Source: Gammaproteobacteria bacterium (GTDB lineage Bacteria > Pseudomonadota > Gammaproteobacteria > SZUA-140). Taken from it: a DNA stretch of 40,373 nt. Each line of letters starts with the position of its first letter. The stretch's first letter is position 1. Below the pieces are notes generated by a model that was not told the DNA's origin, did not search any database, and saw nothing but the letters and a program-made list of their open reading frames with translations. The translations under genes were made by a program, and so were the position numbers. The stretch lies in assembly GCA_016124415.1 (NCBI GenBank), contig WGNS01000013.1:1-40373 (forward strand). Reading direction: 5' to 3'. Below, piece after piece: positions 842-13,509 of the stretch.

Positions 842-1510
842 GTGCGTTTTCTGGTGGCAGACGACCATCCTCTGGTTAAAGCGGGCCTGAAACAACTGCT
901 GATCACGGAATGTCCGGACGCTCAGCTCGACGAGGCGGCAAACGGCGCGGAAGTCATCGCCGTGCTGGAAGCCGCGGATCCGGCCTTCGACCTTATCCTG
1001 CTCGACTACTACATGCCGGGAAGCGAGGACGGTAGATTGATCGCTTTATTGAAGGATCGCTTTCCACAGCTTTCGATCCTGGTGCTGTCCGCCTGCATGG
1101 AGCCGGACGTGATCGAACGCTGTCTCGCGCTTGGTGCCTCGGGCTACGTCACCAAACAAACGGCCCATGAGGCCGTCATCGCGGCGATCAGGCACATATT
1201 GGCGGGTGGCACCTACAAGCCCCCTGAACTGCTGTTGTCACGATTTGATAGCTCGAGTGCCGAGGATAATGCTCCCGAAGGAACGACGGAGGATCCTCGT
1301 TATAAAATGACCAAACGCCAGCGGGATGTCCTGGCGCTGCTCGCTCACGGCGATTCGAATAAGACGATTTCGCGAAAACTGAGCCTGTCGGAGAATACAG
1401 TCAAATCGCACGTTACGTCGATCCTACGTGTTCTCGGCGTGAGCAGCCGTATGCAGGCCGTGCTTGTCGCACAACAATTGGGGATCGACCACGTTCCTTC
1501 ACAACAATAA
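842..1510 (+). CDS. Response regulator, REC plus LuxR/NarL-type HTH
   Basis: N-terminal VADDHPLVKAGLKQLL...LILLDYYMPG receiver; C-terminal MTKRQRDVLALLAHGDSNKTISRKLSLSENTVKSHVTSILRVLGVSSRMQAV HTH; GTG start with AAGGGA upstream. Confidence 0.93.
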   Translation: MRFLVADDHPLVKAGLKQLLITECPDAQLDEAANGAEVIAVLEAADPAFDLILLDYYMPGSEDGRLIALLKDRFPQLSILVLSACMEPDVIERCLALGASGYVTKQTAHEAVIAAIRHILAGGTYKPPELLLSRFDSSSAEDNAPEGTTEDPRYKMTKRQRDVLALLAHGDSNKTISRKLSLSENTVKSHVTSILRVLGVSSRMQAVLVAQQLGIDHVPSQQ

Positions 1511-1567
1511 TTCATCACGCCACGGATGTGATGAGCCAATAAAATCTGATATTGGGATAGTTACCGC

Positions 1568-3664
1568 ATGTCTTTTTGCTTTTATAGAAATTTAGTTCAA
1601 AAATCGTTGTGTACCGTGGGGATGATCGCCCTGCCGACATTGGGATTCGCAAGCGCCGAACCGACGGCCAACGAGGCGGATTTCGTCTCCGAGATCCCGA
1701 TTATCCTGACCGCCACCCGCCTTTTGCAGCCCATTAATGAAACGCCGGTATCGACGACTATCATCGATCACCAAACCATTCAGAACATGGGCGCCACGAA
1801 TATCGCCGACCTGCTCAGGCTCGTGCCGGGCATGCAGGTGGGGCACGGTTCGAGCGCCAACTTTTCGGTGACGTATCATGGTAACAGCAGCACCTTTTCC
1901 CGACGTATGCAGGTGCAGATCGACGGCCGGTCGGTCTATTCTCCGCTGTTTTCCGTCGTCGACTGGACCCACCTGGGTATCGCCATAGAGGATATTGAAC
2001 GCATCGAGGTCATTCGCGGCAGCAATACCCCCATCGACGGCACGAACGCCTTTATCGGGACGATCAACATCATCACCCGCCAGCCGTTTCAGGATAAAGG
2101 CGTCTATATCAGCGGAACCAAAGGCGCCCAGGGTTACGGCAGGGAGATGCTTCGTATCGCCGGCGAAACCGGGCCTGTCGAGCAACGCCTGACCCTGGAG
2201 CACCGGGAAGACAACGGGTTTGATCAGGTCTACGACTCGCAAAGCCTCGACATGGTCGCCTACAGAGGCAGCTACTTTCCGTCCCAGAAGGACTCGTTCG
2301 ATTTCCAACTCGGTTACAGCAGAGGACCGGAAGGCATAGGATCCTTCGACGATCCTTTGGATCCCGCGCGATACAAGGAAACGCACGCGTCCTACGGATT
2401 CATTCGCTGGGAACGGATCTTTTCGGATACCAACGATCTATACGTCCAGTTCTATCAGAATCGCCTGGTTTGGAGCGACAAGGAAGACATCGTCGGCCCG
2501 CTTTCAAGCCTCTTTGGAGTCTCACCCGCGACGATTCTTGCCCTGACGGGAAATCCGGACCAAACCGTCCCTCTGGGCCTTTACGACGGCGAGGCCGAGC
2601 GTATGGACCTCGATTTCAGGAATACCATTCAAGTCACCGGCGATATCAGACTGATCTGGGGTGGCGGACTGCGTCGCGACCGTTTCAAGACGCTGCTCAA
2701 TCTGGATCGTCCCGATCCTATCGACAACTATAGCCGCCGTCTCAACGGACACCTGGAATGGACGATGAGCGAGCGTCTTGTCACCAACGCAGGCGTGATG
2801 ATTGAACATAACGATCTCAGTGACACCGAGATATCGCCGCGATTGGCGCTCAATTATCATCTGGACCACGCCCAGACCCTGCGTTTCGCCGTTGCCCGAT
2901 CGGCGCGTATGCCATCGATCTACGAGGCCAGGGGAGAAAACATCGTTCGATTCGACAGCGGCGACATCATCGACATCACGACGACCAACATCAAAAGCGT
3001 AAGTCCCGACCTCGACGTACGTCCTGAGTTGCTCGACACTTATGAAATCGGCTATGTCTTGTTCCTGCCCGTAAAAAAACTGCAACTGGACGCAAAAATC
3101 TACAAGGACGAGATCACCAAGGTGATATCCGGGCCGACCCTACGCCCATTCAACGACCTTTACGACCAAAAGGCATTCGTCTGGATGAACTCGGGCAATA
3201 TCAAGATCCACGGTCTGGACTTGGGGCTCGATTTTCAGCCGAGCCCGAACACTCGAGTGATCCTGGCTTACGGCTACGCGCGTGCAGACGGACGTATTCT
3301 GAAACGATGGGACCTCGATACCAACAAAACGATCTACTGGCCCAATGAACCCGGAAACAATCAACAGGCCAACAGCGTTCCGCGGCATACCGTGAGCCTG
3401 ATGACCAGCCACCACTTTCCCAGGCACATCGACACCAGCGTGACCTGGTACCATGTCAGCGATATGGAGTGGCTCGGCGACGGAGATCCGGTAAAGGGCT
3501 ACGATCGATTTGACCTGCGTCTGGCCAAGGGGTTTTCGCTGTTCAATTCGACGGCCTCGGTGGAACTGTTGGTCCAAAACCTGTTTGATGACGGATATAT
3601 CGATACGGTAAAAAACAATCGGTTCGGACAGCGTATGTTTATGAATGTCAATCTAAAGTATTGA
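1568..3664 (+). CDS. TonB-dependent outer-membrane receptor
   Basis: Signal peptide; plug domain (ILTATRLLQPINETPVSTTIIDHQTIQNMGATNIADLLRLVPGM...IEDIERIEVIRGSNTPIDGTNAFIGTINIITR); beta-barrel ending in aromatic FMNVNLKY. Confidence 0.93.
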   Translation: MSFCFYRNLVQKSLCTVGMIALPTLGFASAEPTANEADFVSEIPIILTATRLLQPINETPVSTTIIDHQTIQNMGATNIADLLRLVPGMQVGHGSSANFSVTYHGNSSTFSRRMQVQIDGRSVYSPLFSVVDWTHLGIAIEDIERIEVIRGSNTPIDGTNAFIGTINIITRQPFQDKGVYISGTKGAQGYGREMLRIAGETGPVEQRLTLEHREDNGFDQVYDSQSLDMVAYRGSYFPSQKDSFDFQLGYSRGPEGIGSFDDPLDPARYKETHASYGFIRWERIFSDTNDLYVQFYQNRLVWSDKEDIVGPLSSLFGVSPATILALTGNPDQTVPLGLYDGEAERMDLDFRNTIQVTGDIRLIWGGGLRRDRFKTLLNLDRPDPIDNYSRRLNGHLEWTMSERLVTNAGVMIEHNDLSDTEISPRLALNYHLDHAQTLRFAVARSARMPSIYEARGENIVRFDSGDIIDITTTNIKSVSPDLDVRPELLDTYEIGYVLFLPVKKLQLDAKIYKDEITKVISGPTLRPFNDLYDQKAFVWMNSGNIKIHGLDLGLDFQPSPNTRVILAYGYARADGRILKRWDLDTNKTIYWPNEPGNNQQANSVPRHTVSLMTSHHFPRHIDTSVTWYHVSDMEWLGDGDPVKGYDRFDLRLAKGFSLFNSTASVELLVQNLFDDGYIDTVKNNRFGQRMFMNVNLKY

Positions 3665-3673
3665 TACGTATGG

Positions 3674-3693
3674 CGGGAACATTTTATGTCCCG
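3674..3693 (+). terminator. Stem-loop just after the TonB-dependent receptor
   Basis: CGGGAACATTTTATGTCCCG, with one bulged A; weak T-rich tail. Confidence 0.3.
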
Positions 3694-3885
3694 ATTTAGT
3701 CTTTGAAGTTGAGATGATTTGGTGCAGTCACGTCATTCCCTAACGGCCGATAGACCGTTATGGGGAAAACAACCGGATCGGCCGTAGCATCTATTTTCTT
3801 CAAGACGATTATTTCATCCTGTTGACGGCATCCACGGAATGGAGATGATGCAAGTGACAATGACGACCTCGTTCAGCGCACCGCT

Positions 3886-4845
3886 ATGTCTGCCCTGACA
3901 CCGATCGTTCGCGCGCTTTTTATGGTGGCGCTGCTGTGCGTTACCGGTCAGGTCTCTGCGCACGTCCGAATATTGCTTAGCCACTCCACCCCGCCCTACC
4001 GCGCGCTCGCGGATTCGATCAGCGCGTATATCGATGGACAGACATTTTCCATCATCGACGTAGGGTCGCCTGGTCCCGATTCGGATACCCCCGGTTCCGA
4101 TACCGGCATGCTGAATATCGCCGTCGGCAGCCGAGCGATGGATTACGCGTTAAAGACGATGCCGAATATTCCATTGCTGGCCACGCTCGTACCCAGCAAT
4201 GCCTACGAGGATTTACTGAAGACCCACGAGGATGTGCTCAAACCGGGCAAGGTATCGGCAGTCTTTCCCGATCAGCCATTGGAACGCCAGGTCGCGTTCG
4301 TTCATCTGTTGATGCCGGACAAGAAACGGATGGGCGTACTGGTCGGCCAACATTCCTTTCAGTATGTAAAACCGTTAACCCGTTTGGCGTCCGCCCGCGG
4401 CCTCAGCGTAACGATCGGCGACGCCCGCGAGGATCGAATACCTGATGCCATTAAAGACATGCTCGCAGGCAGCGACTTCGTCCTCGCACTGCATGATTCC
4501 AGTCTGCTGACGCCTAACCACGCCAAGTGGTTGCTTTATATGGCCTACCAGCGCCGGATACCCGTTATCGGCTACTCGAAGACCTATGTCCGCGCCGGCG
4601 CGTTGGCGGCGCTCTATTCGTCGAATGATCAAATCGGCCGCCAGGTCTCATCCATGCTTGGGAAAGCGGGACTGCGTCCCCGATACCACACGGCGGACAT
4701 AAAGCTGCCCAAACCGGAATATCCGAACGAATTTTCCATAGAACTCAATAACAACGTGGCCGATTCATTCGCACTTTGGGGAATCGACCCCGATCTGATC
4801 GCGGACCGGCTTCGCCACCTGAACGGAAAAGGAATCGAGCCGTGA
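3886..4845 (+). CDS. Periplasmic ABC-type substrate-binding-like protein (PF04392-like)
   Basis: N-terminal signal peptide (IVRALFMVALLCVTGQVSAH); two-lobe binding-protein pattern (FPDQPLERQVAFVHLLMPDKKRMGVLVG...LALHDSSLLTPNHAKWLLYMAYQRRIPVIGYSKTYVRAGALAALYSSNDQIGRQ). Confidence 0.75.
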   Translation: MSALTPIVRALFMVALLCVTGQVSAHVRILLSHSTPPYRALADSISAYIDGQTFSIIDVGSPGPDSDTPGSDTGMLNIAVGSRAMDYALKTMPNIPLLATLVPSNAYEDLLKTHEDVLKPGKVSAVFPDQPLERQVAFVHLLMPDKKRMGVLVGQHSFQYVKPLTRLASARGLSVTIGDAREDRIPDAIKDMLAGSDFVLALHDSSLLTPNHAKWLLYMAYQRRIPVIGYSKTYVRAGALAALYSSNDQIGRQVSSMLGKAGLRPRYHTADIKLPKPEYPNEFSIELNNNVADSFALWGIDPDLIADRLRHLNGKGIEP

Positions 4846-7586
4846 AGACTCACTTTCTAAACATCCGTATGAAGATCATCCTGCTGGCATGTCTCCCCGT
4901 GATCGCCATCAGTCTCGTCCTGAGCGTCCACATGGTGCAGACGCGCATGAACGATATATTCCAATCGTTGTTGAAACAAGGACAGTTGATCGCCCACAAC
5001 CTCGCGCCGGTCTGTGAACTGGGACTCTTTGCCGGCGACAATGAACTGCTGCAGCGCCTCGCCGACAACACGCTGCGCGACCCCATCGTCAAATCGGTGT
5101 CGATCGTCTCCGCGGATCGTCGCGTGCATCTGCAGGTATTCGCTTCCAGGTCCGAGTCTATTTCGATGACCGGTCCGGTACTCAAAACCCCTCACACCCT
5201 GCTCTTCACCGAACCCGTATATCAAACCGGGACGCCGATCGACGAATACGTCGGAGGACTTCAGAAGAACGCGGTCATCGGGTGGGTCAAGGTCGAGATC
5301 AGCCAGGACGAGGCCATACGCAAGAGAAAGGAAATTCTCGAAAACGGGCTCTCGATCGGAGTACTCGGCGCCCTTGTCAGCATCCTTATCGGTCTCCGCC
5401 TGGAAAAAGGTATCTCCAAGCCCATTCTAAATCTCACCGGGGCGATGGAACGCATGCAGGCGGGTGACCTGGACGCGCGTGCCGAAGGACACGCCAAGGG
5501 CGAGCTCGGGCAGCTGCAGCGCGGATTCAATGAGCTCGCCGACGTCATCAGTGCATCCCAACAGGATTTGACCAAACAAGTGGATGACGCGACGGAAAGA
5601 CTGCGGAGAAACCTCATCGAACTCGCAAAGAAAAACATCGAACTCGATCAAGCCCGGAAAAAGGCCATCGAATTGGGCGACGAAAAATCGAGTTTCCTGT
5701 TCAATATGTCACACGAGATCAGGACGCCGCTCAACGCCGTTCTAGGCTACAACTCGCTGCTCGAAAAAACCGAATTGGATCAGCAGCAAAAGGAATATGC
5801 CCAGATTGTGCACCAGGCCTCGAAACAACTTCTTAGCGTGATCGATGACATCCTCAGCTACGCCCGTCTGGAGTCCGGAAAGGTCATTCTCGAGGAAGTG
5901 CCCTTCGATCTTCTGAAATGTTGTGAGGACGTCATGGCGCTCATGACGCCACTGGCGGCGGAGAAGGAACTCGACTTTGCATTGATCCTGACCAGCCAAT
6001 TCCCCGAAACCGTTCTGGGCGATCCAAATCGCCTGACCCAGATCCTCACGAATCTCGTCAGTAACGCCATCAAATTCACCGAACTCGGACATGTATCCGT
6101 AGAGATCGGTATCGACGAGACGCGCGATGAACCCACGCTCAGGATCGCCGTTCGCGATACCGGAATCGGGATGAGCCAGGAGGCGCAGTCGAATATCTTT
6201 GAGCAATTCCAGCAAGGCGACAATACGATCACAAGGCGCTTCGGCGGTACGGGTCTGGGCCTTGCCATTGTTTCGAGACTCGCCAGGCTCATGGACGCGC
6301 ATATCGACGTAGCAAGCACCGAAGGTCGTGGCACGACGTTTACGTTCCGTTTACCGCTCAGTGTTCCGGACGGAGCGCCCGCAAAGGCAAAGTCCGACGA
6401 CGCGCTGACTGGAACCCGTTGTCTGCTCTACGATTCCAGCGAAATCGAGCGGCAAGCCGTCACCGCGCTACTTCGCCTTTGGAAGGTTGAGGCGATCCAG
6501 GCGGCGCACCTCGACACCGTCATTCCGACACTCGATGCCGAAATTCGATCCGGACGTCGTGTCGATTTCGTGTTCGGCGGCCTTCGGCTGCGCCAGAACG
6601 ATATCGATGACCTCGCAAGCGCCGTGGGTACATTGAGGAAACACTATCAAGGTCCGGTAATGTTACTGTTGACGCATGAAAAACAGGCCAAGGATCCCCG
6701 TTTAAACGTTGACGACCGCATAACACCGATCTGCAGACCCATCCGGCATCGTCTCATGTATGAGCAGATCCGCGCCATGATGCAGCCTGAGACCCAACCG
6801 AAACCCGGCCCGAGCAAGGCCCCCCTGGCAAAACGAAGCCCGCCGATACGCGGCCTGCGCATTCTGCTCGCGGAAGACAACGACCTCAATCGACGCCTGT
6901 TGACCACGCTCGCCGACCAAAAAGGCGCCACGGTTATTTCCGCACATGACGGACAGCACGCCATGAGCATCGCCTGCGCCGAGCCGTTGGACTTGATCCT
7001 GCTCGACCTGCATCTGCCGGAGCTGGATGGCATAGAACTGGCGAGACAGATCCGGGGACTTTCGGGAAGCATGGGACAAGTGCCCATCATCGCGCTGACG
7101 GCGGATATCTACCGCGGAAAGAAGGACAATCTGAAGAATGCCGGATTCAACGGTTGCGTTTTCAAGCCCATCGACGAGGCATCGCTATGGGACTGCGTCG
7201 GCGATGCCCTAAAGGGTATCGATTCCCCCAGATGCTGGCCCGGGCAGGACGATCCCAAGGCATTCAGGGAAACCCGCGTGCGCGCAAAGGAACGGGAGCG
7301 TAAAGGCGCATCGGGATATCCGTCCGGACTGCTACCCGAACTCGAACAGCAATTTGTCGTCGGAAGGCAAGCCATTGCCGATGCGATTGGAAACGACGAC
7401 CGGGTTAAAATCCTGAAGCACAGCCACGACATCAGCGGTGTTGCCGGCATATTCGGGCACACGCGAATCGCCATGGCGGCGGCGGAGATCGAAGGGGCCG
7501 TCCACCGCGAGGCAAAGCTTGCTGATATTTCCCGGCTGTTCGAAGAACTCGATGCAGCGTTCGAAGATCTCGGCGTGACGGGATAA
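4842..7586 (+). CDS. BarA-like hybrid sensor histidine kinase (TM-periplasmic-TM-HAMP-HisKA-HATPase-pseudoREC-REC-Hpt)
   Basis: FLFNMSHEIRTPLNAVLGYN H-box; ILTNLVSNAIKFT N-box; DTGIGM and FGGTGLGLAI G-boxes; ILLAEDNDLNRRLL...LILLDLHLPELDG receiver; C-terminal ILKHSHDISGVAGIFG Hpt; GTG start at 4842 overlaps the TGA of the upstream gene. Confidence 0.92.
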   Translation: MKTHFLNIRMKIILLACLPVIAISLVLSVHMVQTRMNDIFQSLLKQGQLIAHNLAPVCELGLFAGDNELLQRLADNTLRDPIVKSVSIVSADRRVHLQVFASRSESISMTGPVLKTPHTLLFTEPVYQTGTPIDEYVGGLQKNAVIGWVKVEISQDEAIRKRKEILENGLSIGVLGALVSILIGLRLEKGISKPILNLTGAMERMQAGDLDARAEGHAKGELGQLQRGFNELADVISASQQDLTKQVDDATERLRRNLIELAKKNIELDQARKKAIELGDEKSSFLFNMSHEIRTPLNAVLGYNSLLEKTELDQQQKEYAQIVHQASKQLLSVIDDILSYARLESGKVILEEVPFDLLKCCEDVMALMTPLAAEKELDFALILTSQFPETVLGDPNRLTQILTNLVSNAIKFTELGHVSVEIGIDETRDEPTLRIAVRDTGIGMSQEAQSNIFEQFQQGDNTITRRFGGTGLGLAIVSRLARLMDAHIDVASTEGRGTTFTFRLPLSVPDGAPAKAKSDDALTGTRCLLYDSSEIERQAVTALLRLWKVEAIQAAHLDTVIPTLDAEIRSGRRVDFVFGGLRLRQNDIDDLASAVGTLRKHYQGPVMLLLTHEKQAKDPRLNVDDRITPICRPIRHRLMYEQIRAMMQPETQPKPGPSKAPLAKRSPPIRGLRILLAEDNDLNRRLLTTLADQKGATVISAHDGQHAMSIACAEPLDLILLDLHLPELDGIELARQIRGLSGSMGQVPIIALTADIYRGKKDNLKNAGFNGCVFKPIDEASLWDCVGDALKGIDSPRCWPGQDDPKAFRETRVRAKERERKGASGYPSGLLPELEQQFVVGRQAIADAIGNDDRVKILKHSHDISGVAGIFGHTRIAMAAAEIEGAVHREAKLADISRLFEELDAAFEDLGVTG

Positions 7587-8524: not shown

Positions 8525-9589
8525 TTAGTTGATCCGCGGATCCAGTTCACCCGAGACATAACGCTGGAACATTTTCTCCAGCGAGACGGGCTTGATCTTG
8601 GAGCCCATGCCGGCGCAGCCGAAGGCCTCGTAACGGGCCTTACAGATCTCCGTCATACCCTTCGTGGCTTCCTTCAGGAATTTGCGCGGATCGAAATTCG
8701 CTTTGTTCTCCTCAAGATGCTTACGAATCGCACCCGTGGAGGCCATACGCAGGTCGGTATCGATGTTGACCTTGCGAACGCCGTGCTTGATACCTTCGAC
8801 GATCTCCTCGACGGGAACGCCGTACGTCTCACCCATGTCGCCGCCGTAGCTATTGATGACCTTGAGCCAATCCTGGGGAACGGAGGACGAACCGTGCATG
8901 ACGAGATGCGTGTCCGGGATACGGGCGTGAATCTCCTTGATGCGATCGATCGCCAGGATGTCGCCTGTGGGCGGACGCGTGAACTTGTATGCGCCATGGC
9001 TGGTGCCGATGGCGATGGCCAGCGCGTCGACTTTGGTTTTCTTGACGAAGTCGGCGGCCTGCTCGGGGTCGGTCAGCAGCATGGACTTGTCCAGCTTGCC
9101 CTCGGCGCCATGGCCGTCTTCCTCACCCATTTCGCCGGTCTCAAGCGAACCCAGACAGCCGAGCTCGCCCTCGACGGAGACGCCGCCGGCATGCGCCATG
9201 GCGACGACCTGGGAGGTCACGTCGACGTTGTACTCATAGGAAGACGGGGTCTTCATATCGGCCATCAGCGAACCGTCCATCATGACGGAGCTGAAACCGC
9301 TCTGGATAGAGCGCAGGCAGACGGCCGGCTCGGAACCGTGGTCCTGATGCATCACGATGGGCACATCAGGATAGGCCTCCAGGGCAGCCAGAATCAGGTG
9401 ACGCAGGAACGGCTCGCCGGCATAGCTGCGGGCGCCGGCGGAACCCTGCATGATGACCGGGCTGTCGCAAGCGGCGGCAGCCTGCATGATGGCATGCACC
9501 TGCTCCATGTTGTTGACGTTGAACGCCGGGACGCCATAGGAATGCTCCGCAGCGTGATCGAGAAGTTGTCTAAGTGAGATGAGTGCCAT
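8525..9589 (-). CDS. fba: Class II fructose-1,6-bisphosphate aldolase (CbbA type)
   Basis: [21 protein letters not shown]...VIMHQDHG...[25 protein letters not shown]...[13 protein letters not shown]...[19 protein letters not shown]. Confidence 0.95.
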
Positions 9590-9681
9590 AGTGGTTATCC
9601 TCCGCTAAAAAATCTCTTGTTTATTTCGTGACTCGTTATAGTCCGTCGAGTTGTGCATCCCGAACGGGATCGGGATACCGA

Positions 9682-11127
9682 TCAGGTCTCCCCCACCCTC
9701 AGGATCTTCATCGTATTCGTATGTCCCAGCATTCTCATCATATCACCCTTGGTGATGATGACCATCTCGCCCTCACGGACAGTACCCTGGCGCAACAATT
9801 CGTTGGTAACGGCCTTGTTGATCTCGATATGGGACTTGTCGGGATCGACGTCGAACGCAACCGGATAGACGCCCCGGTAGATTGCCACTTTACGACGCGT
9901 CGACTCATGCCGCGTCAGGGCGTAGATCGGGATCCCGGAGCTCACGCGCGACATCCACTGGACCGTGGCGCCCGACTCCGTCATGGCCGCGATCGCGCGA
10001 ACCCTTAGGTGGTTGGCCGTATACATCGTGGCCATGGCCACGGCCTCGTCAACGTGGGTGAATTCGTTATTGATGCGCTGCCGGGCGATCACCGAAACCT
10101 TCTGACGTTCAGCGCCCTTACACACACGGTCCATGGCGACAATGGCCTTGACGGGATGTTTGCCGATCGCGGTCTCGTCGGAAAGCATGACCGCGTCGGT
10201 GCCGTCCAACACCGCATTGGCCACGTCGAACACCTCGGCCCGGGTAGGGATCTGATTGTTGACCATGGACATCATCATCTGGGTCGCCGTGATCACGACA
10301 CAGTTCATGCCGCGGGCCAGATGAATCAGGTGTTTCTGGACCCCCGGCAGCTCGGCATCGCCGATCTCGACGCCCAAGTCGCCGCGCGCGACCATGATGA
10401 CGTCGGCAGCGGAGATGATGCCTTCGATAACGCCCAGCGATTCGGCGCGTTCGATCTTGGCAACGATACCGCCCTCGCCTCCCGCAGCTCGCAGCAAGCG
10501 CCGGGCCTCGTGGACATCCTCACCGTCCCGCGGAAAGGATATCGCGACATAGTCGGCCTTGAGCTTCGCCGCCGTGGCCATGTCCGACTTGTCCTTCTCG
10601 GTGATGGCCGCGGCCGAAAGGCCTCCGCCCTGACGGTTGATACCCTTGTTATTGGAGACTTCACCGCCAACCAGCACCTTGCAGCGGATTACGCGATCGT
10701 CGGACTCAGTGACGCGCAGGACGACCTTACCGTCGTCGACAAGCAGGACGTCGCCCGAGGAGACGTCCTTGGGCATATCCTTATAAGTGAGTCCGACCCT
10801 GTGCTGATCGCCGTCGTCGTCGGGACAGTCGATATCGAAGGTGAACGTATCACCTTCCTTCAACGTGACAGGCCCGCTCTTGAATCGGGTCAAGCGAATC
10901 TTGGGCCCCTGAAGATCGACCAGAATCGCAACGTCCTTACGCACCGACGCAGCAGCGGCACGAATCGCCTCGGCGCGACGAATGTGCTCGCTCGACTCGC
11001 CGTGCGAGAAGTTGAGGCGAAAGACGTCGACTCCGGCCCGGATCATCTCCTCGATGATCGCGGGATCGTCACTTGCCGGCCCCAACGTCGCTACGATCTT
11101 GGTCCTACGCAAAACTGAATTGCTCAT
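9682..11127 (-). CDS. pyk: Pyruvate kinase
   Basis: RRTKIVATLGPASDDPAIIEEMIRAGVDVFRLNFSHG...MVARGDLGVEIGDAELPGVQKHLI...ITATQMMMSM...AVLDGTDAVMLSDETAIGKHPVKAI. Confidence 0.97.
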   Translation of the reverse strand: MSNSVLRRTKIVATLGPASDDPAIIEEMIRAGVDVFRLNFSHGESSEHIRRAEAIRAAAASVRKDVAILVDLQGPKIRLTRFKSGPVTLKEGDTFTFDIDCPDDDGDQHRVGLTYKDMPKDVSSGDVLLVDDGKVVLRVTESDDRVIRCKVLVGGEVSNNKGINRQGGGLSAAAITEKDKSDMATAAKLKADYVAISFPRDGEDVHEARRLLRAAGGEGGIVAKIERAESLGVIEGIISAADVIMVARGDLGVEIGDAELPGVQKHLIHLARGMNCVVITATQMMMSMVNNQIPTRAEVFDVANAVLDGTDAVMLSDETAIGKHPVKAIVAMDRVCKGAERQKVSVIARQRINNEFTHVDEAVAMATMYTANHLRVRAIAAMTESGATVQWMSRVSSGIPIYALTRHESTRRKVAIYRGVYPVAFDVDPDKSHIEINKAVTNELLRQGTVREGEMVIITKGDMMRMLGHTNTMKILRVGET

Positions 11128-11197
11128 AGTAACAGTAGACCCGCGCCACTGGGACGGCGGGTCTCTTTATCCTCCAATAGAATGGTGGTTTTAGCGA

Positions 11198-12373
11198 TCA
11201 GCCGGCGCGCTCTTCCAGAATGGCAACGGCGGGCAGCTTCTTGCCTTCAAGGAATTCGAGGAAGGCGCCGCCACCGGTCGAGATATACGATACTTTATCA
11301 GCAATCTGATACTTATCAACCGCAGCCAAGGTGTCGCCGCCACCGGCGATCGAGAACGCACTCGAATCGGCGATCGCCATGGACAGCGCCCTGGTGCCTT
11401 CGCCGAACTGGTCAAACTCGAAAACGCCGACGGGACCGTTCCAGACGATGGTGCCGGCACCCTTGAGGATCTCCGCCAGCTGGGCGGAAGTCTGAGGACC
11501 GATATCGAAGATCATGTCGTCGTCGGCGACGTCGGCGACATTCTTCAGGGTCGCGGCGGCGCTCTCTGAGAACTCCTTGCCGCAAACGACGTCGACGGGC
11601 ACCGGAATGTCGCCACCACGTGACTGGGCATCGGCCGTCAACTTGTTGCAGGTATCGATCAGGTCGGCCTCGTAAAGCGACTTGCCGACGTTGTGACCGG
11701 CCGCCGCGATGAACGTATTGGCGATACCGCCGCCGACGATCAACTGATCGACGACCTTGGAAAGCGATTCCAGAACGGTCAGCTTGGTGGAAACCTTGGA
11801 ACCGCCGACGATGGCGACCAACGGGCGGGCCGGATTGTCCAGCGCCTTGCCCAAAGCGTCGAGTTCCGCCGCGAGCAGCGGGCCGGCGCAGGCAACGGGA
11901 GCAAACTGAGCGGCGCCATAGGTGGAACCCTGTGCCCGGTGTGCGGTGCCGAAGGCGTCCATAACGAATACGTCACACAGCGCGGCGTATTGCTTGGCAA
12001 GCGCATCTTCGTTCTTCTTCTCGCCGTTGTTGAAGCGAACATTCTCCAGGATCACGACCTCGCCGTCAGCAAGATCTACACCGTTCAGGTAGTCCTTGAC
12101 CAGACGAACGTCCTTGCCGAGCATTCCTCCCATGTGAGCGGCAACCGGCGCCAGCGAAAACTCTTCCGCATACTCGCCCTCGGTCGGACGTCCCAGGTGA
12201 GACATGATCATCACCTTCGCGCCTGCTTTCAAAGCATGTTCAATCGTCGGCAACGACGCGCGGATACGCGCATCGGAAGTCACCTTGCCGTCCTTTACGG
12301 GGACGTTCAGATCCTGCCTGATCAATACACGTTTGCCGGCAAGATCGAGATCGGTCATTTTGATTACGGACAT
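11198..12373 (-). CDS. pgk: Phosphoglycerate kinase
   Basis: [36 protein letters not shown]...SHLGRP...[18 protein letters not shown]...[20 protein letters not shown]...[13 protein letters not shown]. Confidence 0.97.
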
Positions 12374-12498
12374 TTCAAATTCCTCAATAAATGTAGAACA
12401 AAGAGCGGAAGATCAAAGCGTAAGCGGCGGACATATGCCCGCCACCTACAGGTTTCCAACCGACTGCTTTAGTTCCTCTCGTAGCTGTTCTTTCCCTA

Positions 12499-13509
<1,011 letters not shown>

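Follow-up and report, generated by a model that had tools for sequence, protein, structure and literature searches.

A candidate sensory module combining a TonB-dependent receptor, a PF04392-type binding protein and a hybrid kinase in a gammaproteobacterial contig

Four adjacent genes on a gammaproteobacterial contig appear to encode a sensory module reaching across both membranes. Judged by analogy with described systems, it is of the kind in which a binding protein gates a hybrid kinase, here supplemented by an outer-membrane receptor of its own. According to our model, the TonB-dependent receptor (TBDR) would move a scarce ligand into the periplasm, where a PF04392-type binding protein (SBP), which has no visible transporter partner, would bind it; the ligand-bound SBP would dock on the kinase at its small sCache_4 domain and alter kinase activity. 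Phosphate would travel from His291 to Asp722 to His862 of the kinase and on to the Asp of a LuxR-type response regulator (RR), and the regulator would control genes, possibly including its own operon. The support for the model is computational and comes from gene content, linkage, clade separation, the intact relay residues, and the unique regulator and non-CheA Hpt domain in the available genome. On this sequence evidence we judge the model as a whole to be somewhat probable; that the four genes form one functional unit we hold more firmly than this, and the order of import followed by sensing less firmly. The contact between SBP and kinase, the direction of regulation and the regulon are elements of the model that we infer.

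Results

Organisation of the locus

The window, that is, the whole 40,373-nucleotide stretch of DNA analysed, is one contig of a genome of 2.19 Mb, assembled in 98 contigs and 80% complete. As described in an earlier note on this DNA, it carries four plus-strand genes in a row, and all of the domains named there score above the Pfam cut-offs:

842–1510, plus strand: LuxR/NarL-type response regulator (RR), REC and GerE HTH domains, GTG start
1511–1567, plus strand: 57-bp gap between the RR and TBDR genes, containing a short inverted repeat, CATCAC...GTGATG
1568–3664, plus strand: TonB-dependent receptor (TBDR), Plug and barrel (Pfam)
3886–4845, plus strand: secreted PF04392-type binding protein (SBP) of the signalling clade (Pfam, predicted fold, tree)
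4842–7586, plus strand: hybrid sensor kinase, 914 aa (Pfam, GTGA overlap, conserved relay residues, sensor model)

The kinase gene probably starts at GTG 4842 and not at the listed TTG 4776, because this GTG forms a GTGA overlap with the SBP stop codon, is preceded by AAGGA, and has the 4-base overlap that is common in relatives; kinase length and residue numbers are counted from it. The TBDR-SBP gap of 221 bp offers space for a separate promoter, a point against the model. The inverted repeat lies at 1512–1535, right after the RR gene, and possibly represents an operator or a hairpin. A conserved operator upstream of the TBDR or RR was considered and rejected, as the window's repeat was not seen in relatives compared by eye.

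To the left of the RR are two ORFs without a Pfam family, the contig starting at base 1; right of the kinase gene lies tatD, in opposite orientation. The immediate neighbours include no sigma or anti-sigma (FecI/FecR) gene, in agreement with the earlier note. Elsewhere in the window, G+C is 0.51 at positions 1–841, the contig end, versus 0.59 for the remainder; fba, pyk and pgk (assigned by sequence) and the GAPDH gene lie consecutively on the minus strand at 8525–13506; and flagellin and fliD are found at 20.1–24.2 kb. A PHROGs comparison yielded no match.

Conservation and correlated divergence

Of 94 related genomes, 22 proved to encode the SBP, in most cases between an upstream TBDR gene and a downstream gene for a BarA-like kinase. 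We searched for PF04392 in 370 gammaproteobacterial genomes and read 80 higher-ranking loci, six of which (L120, L140, L145, L154, L166 and L171) were re-filed by hand after their start or category had been miscalled by the simple ORF caller; the sample is ranked by PF04392 score and non-random, and related genomes within it are not independent. An sCache kinase adjoins the SBP in 28 of the 80 loci, and a TBDR is located nearby in 22 of these 28 as compared to none of the 52 other PF04392 loci (Fisher p ~1e-14, uncorrected for kinship of the genomes). The TBDR is directly upstream and on the same strand in 16 of the 22 TBDR-bearing loci of this SBP-anchored sample.

A list of 64 SBP-kinase pairs, partly reached via the TBDR and thus biased as a count, has the TBDR upstream on the same strand in 46 cases, and the 4-base overlap of the SBP and kinase genes is common among the pairs. 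For 12 of the 64 no TBDR was detected nearby (an artefact of detection in L171 and L205 at least), which argues that the TBDR is not obligatory for an SBP-kinase pair. An SBP-kinase fusion in L171 was ruled out, since the two genes are in different frames. A phylum-wide search with 20 further loci recovered the TBDR-SBP-kinase triad in most, including genomes of ~6 Mb and another class. Recurring as it does in dozens of genomes, the neighbourhood is not due to chance.

A diverged version (RR-CPBP-TBDR-SBP-like-HK) sits beside partition and transfer genes on a mobilizable plasmid of Massilia sp. WG5 (L062:4045-10254); here the SBP-like protein scores against none of the Pfam families, and the dimerisation domain of the kinase is of another type, HisKA_3. 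The SBP-like gene also occurs on a further Massilia plasmid, NZ_CP103372.1. Searching the open-access literature with literal terms, we found no description of a TBDR-PF04392-kinase module, an absence that is weak evidence.

In a midpoint-rooted maximum-likelihood tree of 110 PF04392 proteins, the window SBP falls in a 48-row clade (support 95/93), all rows of which have an sCache kinase and 40 of which have a linked TBDR. None of the 16 loci filed as ABC-linked lies on this clade's side of the midpoint root; the filing is coarse (L106, filed as ABC, has a kinase directly downstream). The window's own 11-row subclade has weak support (93/61), leaving its exact limits uncertain. A LuxR regulator is present in all assessable members of this subclade, upstream in each locus except L032, where it is downstream; many modules outside the subclade have no linked LuxR regulator, which counts against the model. 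The check proposed in the earlier note, a conserved neighbourhood, gives strong support for TBDR, SBP and sCache_4 kinase, and for the regulator within the window's subclade.

Pairwise distances across 39 modules correlate at r 0.84 for SBP-TBDR, 0.77 for TBDR-sensor and 0.72 for SBP-sensor, with the kinase catalytic core giving r of about 0.3 against each of the three. Part of this contrast with the core reflects deep splits, because the main clade alone (33 modules, rank r) gives a smaller one: 0.71, 0.58 and 0.52, respectively, versus 0.43–0.47 for the core. After partialling on the kinase core, the main-clade values are 0.62, 0.47 and 0.40. These correlations, from which shared species history is partly removed, fit with TBDR, SBP and sensor diverging together.

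It is against this pattern that the strongest alternative has to be weighed, namely that the TBDR is mainly a regulated output: SBP, kinase and regulator would sense a solute arriving otherwise, through porins, and switch on a high-affinity TBDR, the sensing itself being TBDR-free. Five SBP-kinase pairs for which no TBDR was detected nearby (L040, L134, L148, L169 and L172) are consistent with this reading, as are five loci with the TBDR encoded on the other strand (L120, L133, L146, L155 and L165), as expected of a regulated target. However, no other pair of parts has distances as strongly correlated as SBP-TBDR, and the TBDR gene mostly sits immediately ahead of the SBP gene in the same orientation; we consider the alternative unlikely, if worth keeping in mind.

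Receptor and binding protein

The model of a receptor that imports for the SBP puts the identity of both proteins in focus. The TBDR consists of Plug (69 bits) and TonB_dep_Rec barrel (99 bits) domains; these are its only Pfam matches at E < 0.01, with no STN signalling domain. The genome yielded a single further TBDR, which is BtuB-like (567 bits, slightly below the TIGR01779 cut-off), and TonB was found as well. Two tandem TBDRs precede the SBP at L138:868-5387 and L168:7978-11985.

The nearest named family of the window TBDR is NF053590 (TOL_0244), with a score of 195 bits that falls short of the 645-bit cut-off; ten other module TBDRs scanned reach 137–247 bits. Matches to NF053590 across 281 genomes are bimodal, with a strong group above 400 bits and a second group at 140–257 bits, many TBDRs of which coincide with SBP-kinase modules. 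Strong members often precede a DUF4154 (YfiR/HmsC-like) gene, followed by a GGDEF/EAL protein or kinase, an arrangement verified in five loci; such loci, with a TOL_0244-type TBDR and a GGDEF/EAL protein or hybrid kinase downstream, are L179, L182, L189, L194 and L196. With long-chain alkane, TOL_0244 increases; the protein resembles OmpS of Alcanivorax, which is reported to be necessary for detecting alkanes (PMC6304351). We did not read a ligand from this alkane-linked family, the cut-off of which is far above the TBDR score, and take it as a hint only.

The SBP matches ABC_sub_bind (PF04392) with 39.2 bits (gathering cut-off 25.9) and is the sole PF04392 homologue found in the genome. Its AlphaFold model (pLDDT 85) predicts the fold of a two-lobed binding protein and matches the PF04392 structures 6hnj, 3lkv, 3lft and 6hni at Z 20–23. 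At several positions that are conserved among transporter SBPs the window SBP has other residues, which suggests a changed binding pocket; because of these replacements no ligand is called from the fold, although the nearest structures bind aromatic amino acids. The motif AKWLLYxA marks the window's SBP subclade, AKWLLYMAY being invariant in ten aligned proteins, and residues 213–222 (AKWLLYMAYQ; window 4522–4551) are almost invariant, the remainder of the protein being down to 22–35% identity; this stretch is a possible interaction surface. At L122:5227-8040 a single 937-aa protein joins a PF04392 domain to PAS-GGDEF-EAL, a natural fusion that speaks for the model.

YfiR controls YfiN via the periplasmic domain of YfiN, which makes the DUF4154 slot a useful analogy and brings up a second alternative: the SBP may resemble YfiR in acting as a periplasmic inhibitor, one that keeps the kinase inactive (or active) and answers to the state of the envelope or to the TBDR, and not to a classical small ligand. 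Such a role would sit well with the replaced positions and with the DUF4154/YfiR-like protein that occupies the SBP slot next to related TOL_0244-family TBDRs, ahead of GGDEF/EAL proteins or kinases. Against it stands the two-lobed predicted fold, which matches ligand-bound PF04392 structures with Z above 20; we regard this alternative as improbable.

Kinase and response regulator

In our preferred model the ligand-bound SBP acts on a kinase ordered TM, sCache_4, TM, HAMP, HisKA (H291), HATPase, degenerate region, REC (D722) and Hpt (H862). The degenerate region between HATPase and REC resembles BarA on sequence inspection. H291, D722 and H862 are conserved across the alignment of module kinases, leaving the relay residues intact. 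In the predicted structure of the sensor part, long helices flank a small mixed domain; this structure weakly matches a WalK-YycH model and a LapD output domain. The RR matches PF00072 (66 bits) and PF00196 (65 bits) and carries the phosphoacceptor motif LILLD, which supplies the partner Asp.

In the 80%-complete genome we found no GerE (LuxR-HTH) protein besides the RR, and two Hpt domains: that of the kinase and that of a CheA-like protein. Assignment of the RR as the kinase output gains support from these counts, as the genome yields a single LuxR-HTH protein and CheA is the only other Hpt protein. To the extent that the genome is complete, neither kinase nor RR would seem to have another candidate partner of the respective type; given that the genome is 80% complete, all 'only one' counts (LuxR-HTH, Hpt, TBDR) are provisional.

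A relay of this composition could also mean that the kinase is simply the BarA/GacS orthologue of this organism and feeds into the Csr pathway, with TBDR and SBP incidental. BarA (NF008318) is indeed the best NCBIfam model for the kinase, which is the sole BarA-like hybrid kinase found in the genome, and the window RR is the genome's top match to the UvrY model; but with 542 bits against a cut-off of 890 and 71.5 bits against 280, respectively, both proteins score far too low, and the widespread TBDR-SBP-kinase linkage is no recent accident, making this reading quite improbable.

Least credible of all is that the SBP is an ordinary ABC-transporter subunit, with permease and ATPase encoded elsewhere and the kinase linkage reflecting mere co-regulation: its Pfam name, its fold and its closest solved structures, which are PF04392 amino-acid binding proteins, would suit such a role, but a search of the 80%-complete genome for the CmpB-type permease (PF06541) gave no match, the SBP differs at positions that transporter SBPs conserve, its clade stands apart from transporter-linked SBPs, and many relatives show the 4-bp overlap between the end of the SBP gene and the start of the kinase gene. 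The separate clade and the permease search favour the SBP as a sensor part over a transporter subunit. Taken as a whole, the interpretation in the earlier note is partly supported.

Discussion

TonB-dependent receptors have mostly been studied as importers, and their signalling is known mainly via the FecA route. We tentatively suggest, as a possibility less probable than the model for the window itself, that the module belongs to a widespread undescribed class in which dedicated TBDRs pass ligand or occupancy state to a periplasmic adaptor (PF04392 or YfiR-like) controlling an inner-membrane kinase or cyclic-di-GMP enzyme; in this way an outer-membrane receptor would act on gene expression independently of sigma factors, perhaps through direct contact with the adaptor. 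If this is true, the recurrent TBDR-adaptor-kinase unit is a second route of TBDR signalling in many environmental proteobacteria, and functions could be proposed for many genes annotated as 'TonB receptor', 'ABC substrate-binding protein' or 'hybrid kinase'. The window organism, in which one LuxR-type regulator and one non-CheA Hpt were found, would then be a convenient reduced case.

Individual features of the module have counterparts in known systems. LuxP/LuxQ and TorT/TorS likewise combine a periplasmic binding protein with an inner-membrane hybrid kinase, and the window SBP is, as expected of a binding-protein-gated kinase, encoded beside the kinase and not beside a transporter. However, LuxP/LuxQ and TorT/TorS use another binding-protein family and another sensor domain, whereas the window kinase has a built-in Hpt and a linked LuxR-type regulator as its putative output; neither of the two systems is known to have a dedicated TBDR. 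BarA/GacS with UvrY/GacA has the same HAMP-HisKA-HATPase-REC-Hpt order and a LuxR-type regulator, but the window genes are linked to a TBDR and an SBP, and both scores are below the family cut-offs.

The PF04392 ABC-transporter SBPs (TrpX, 3lft; CD0873, 6hni/6hnj; and the V. cholerae protein, 3lkv) have fold and family in common with the window SBP, which differs from them in the lack of transporter genes, the replacement of conserved positions and its separate clade. In FecA-FecR-FecI a TonB-dependent receptor is likewise tied to gene regulation, but no STN domain was found in the window TBDR, and the route would be an SBP-kinase relay. Loci in which a TOL_0244-family TBDR is combined with DUF4154 and a GGDEF/EAL protein or hybrid kinase have a related TBDR subfamily and the same three-compartment layout, with a YfiR/HmsC-like periplasmic part in the position where the window module has PF04392.
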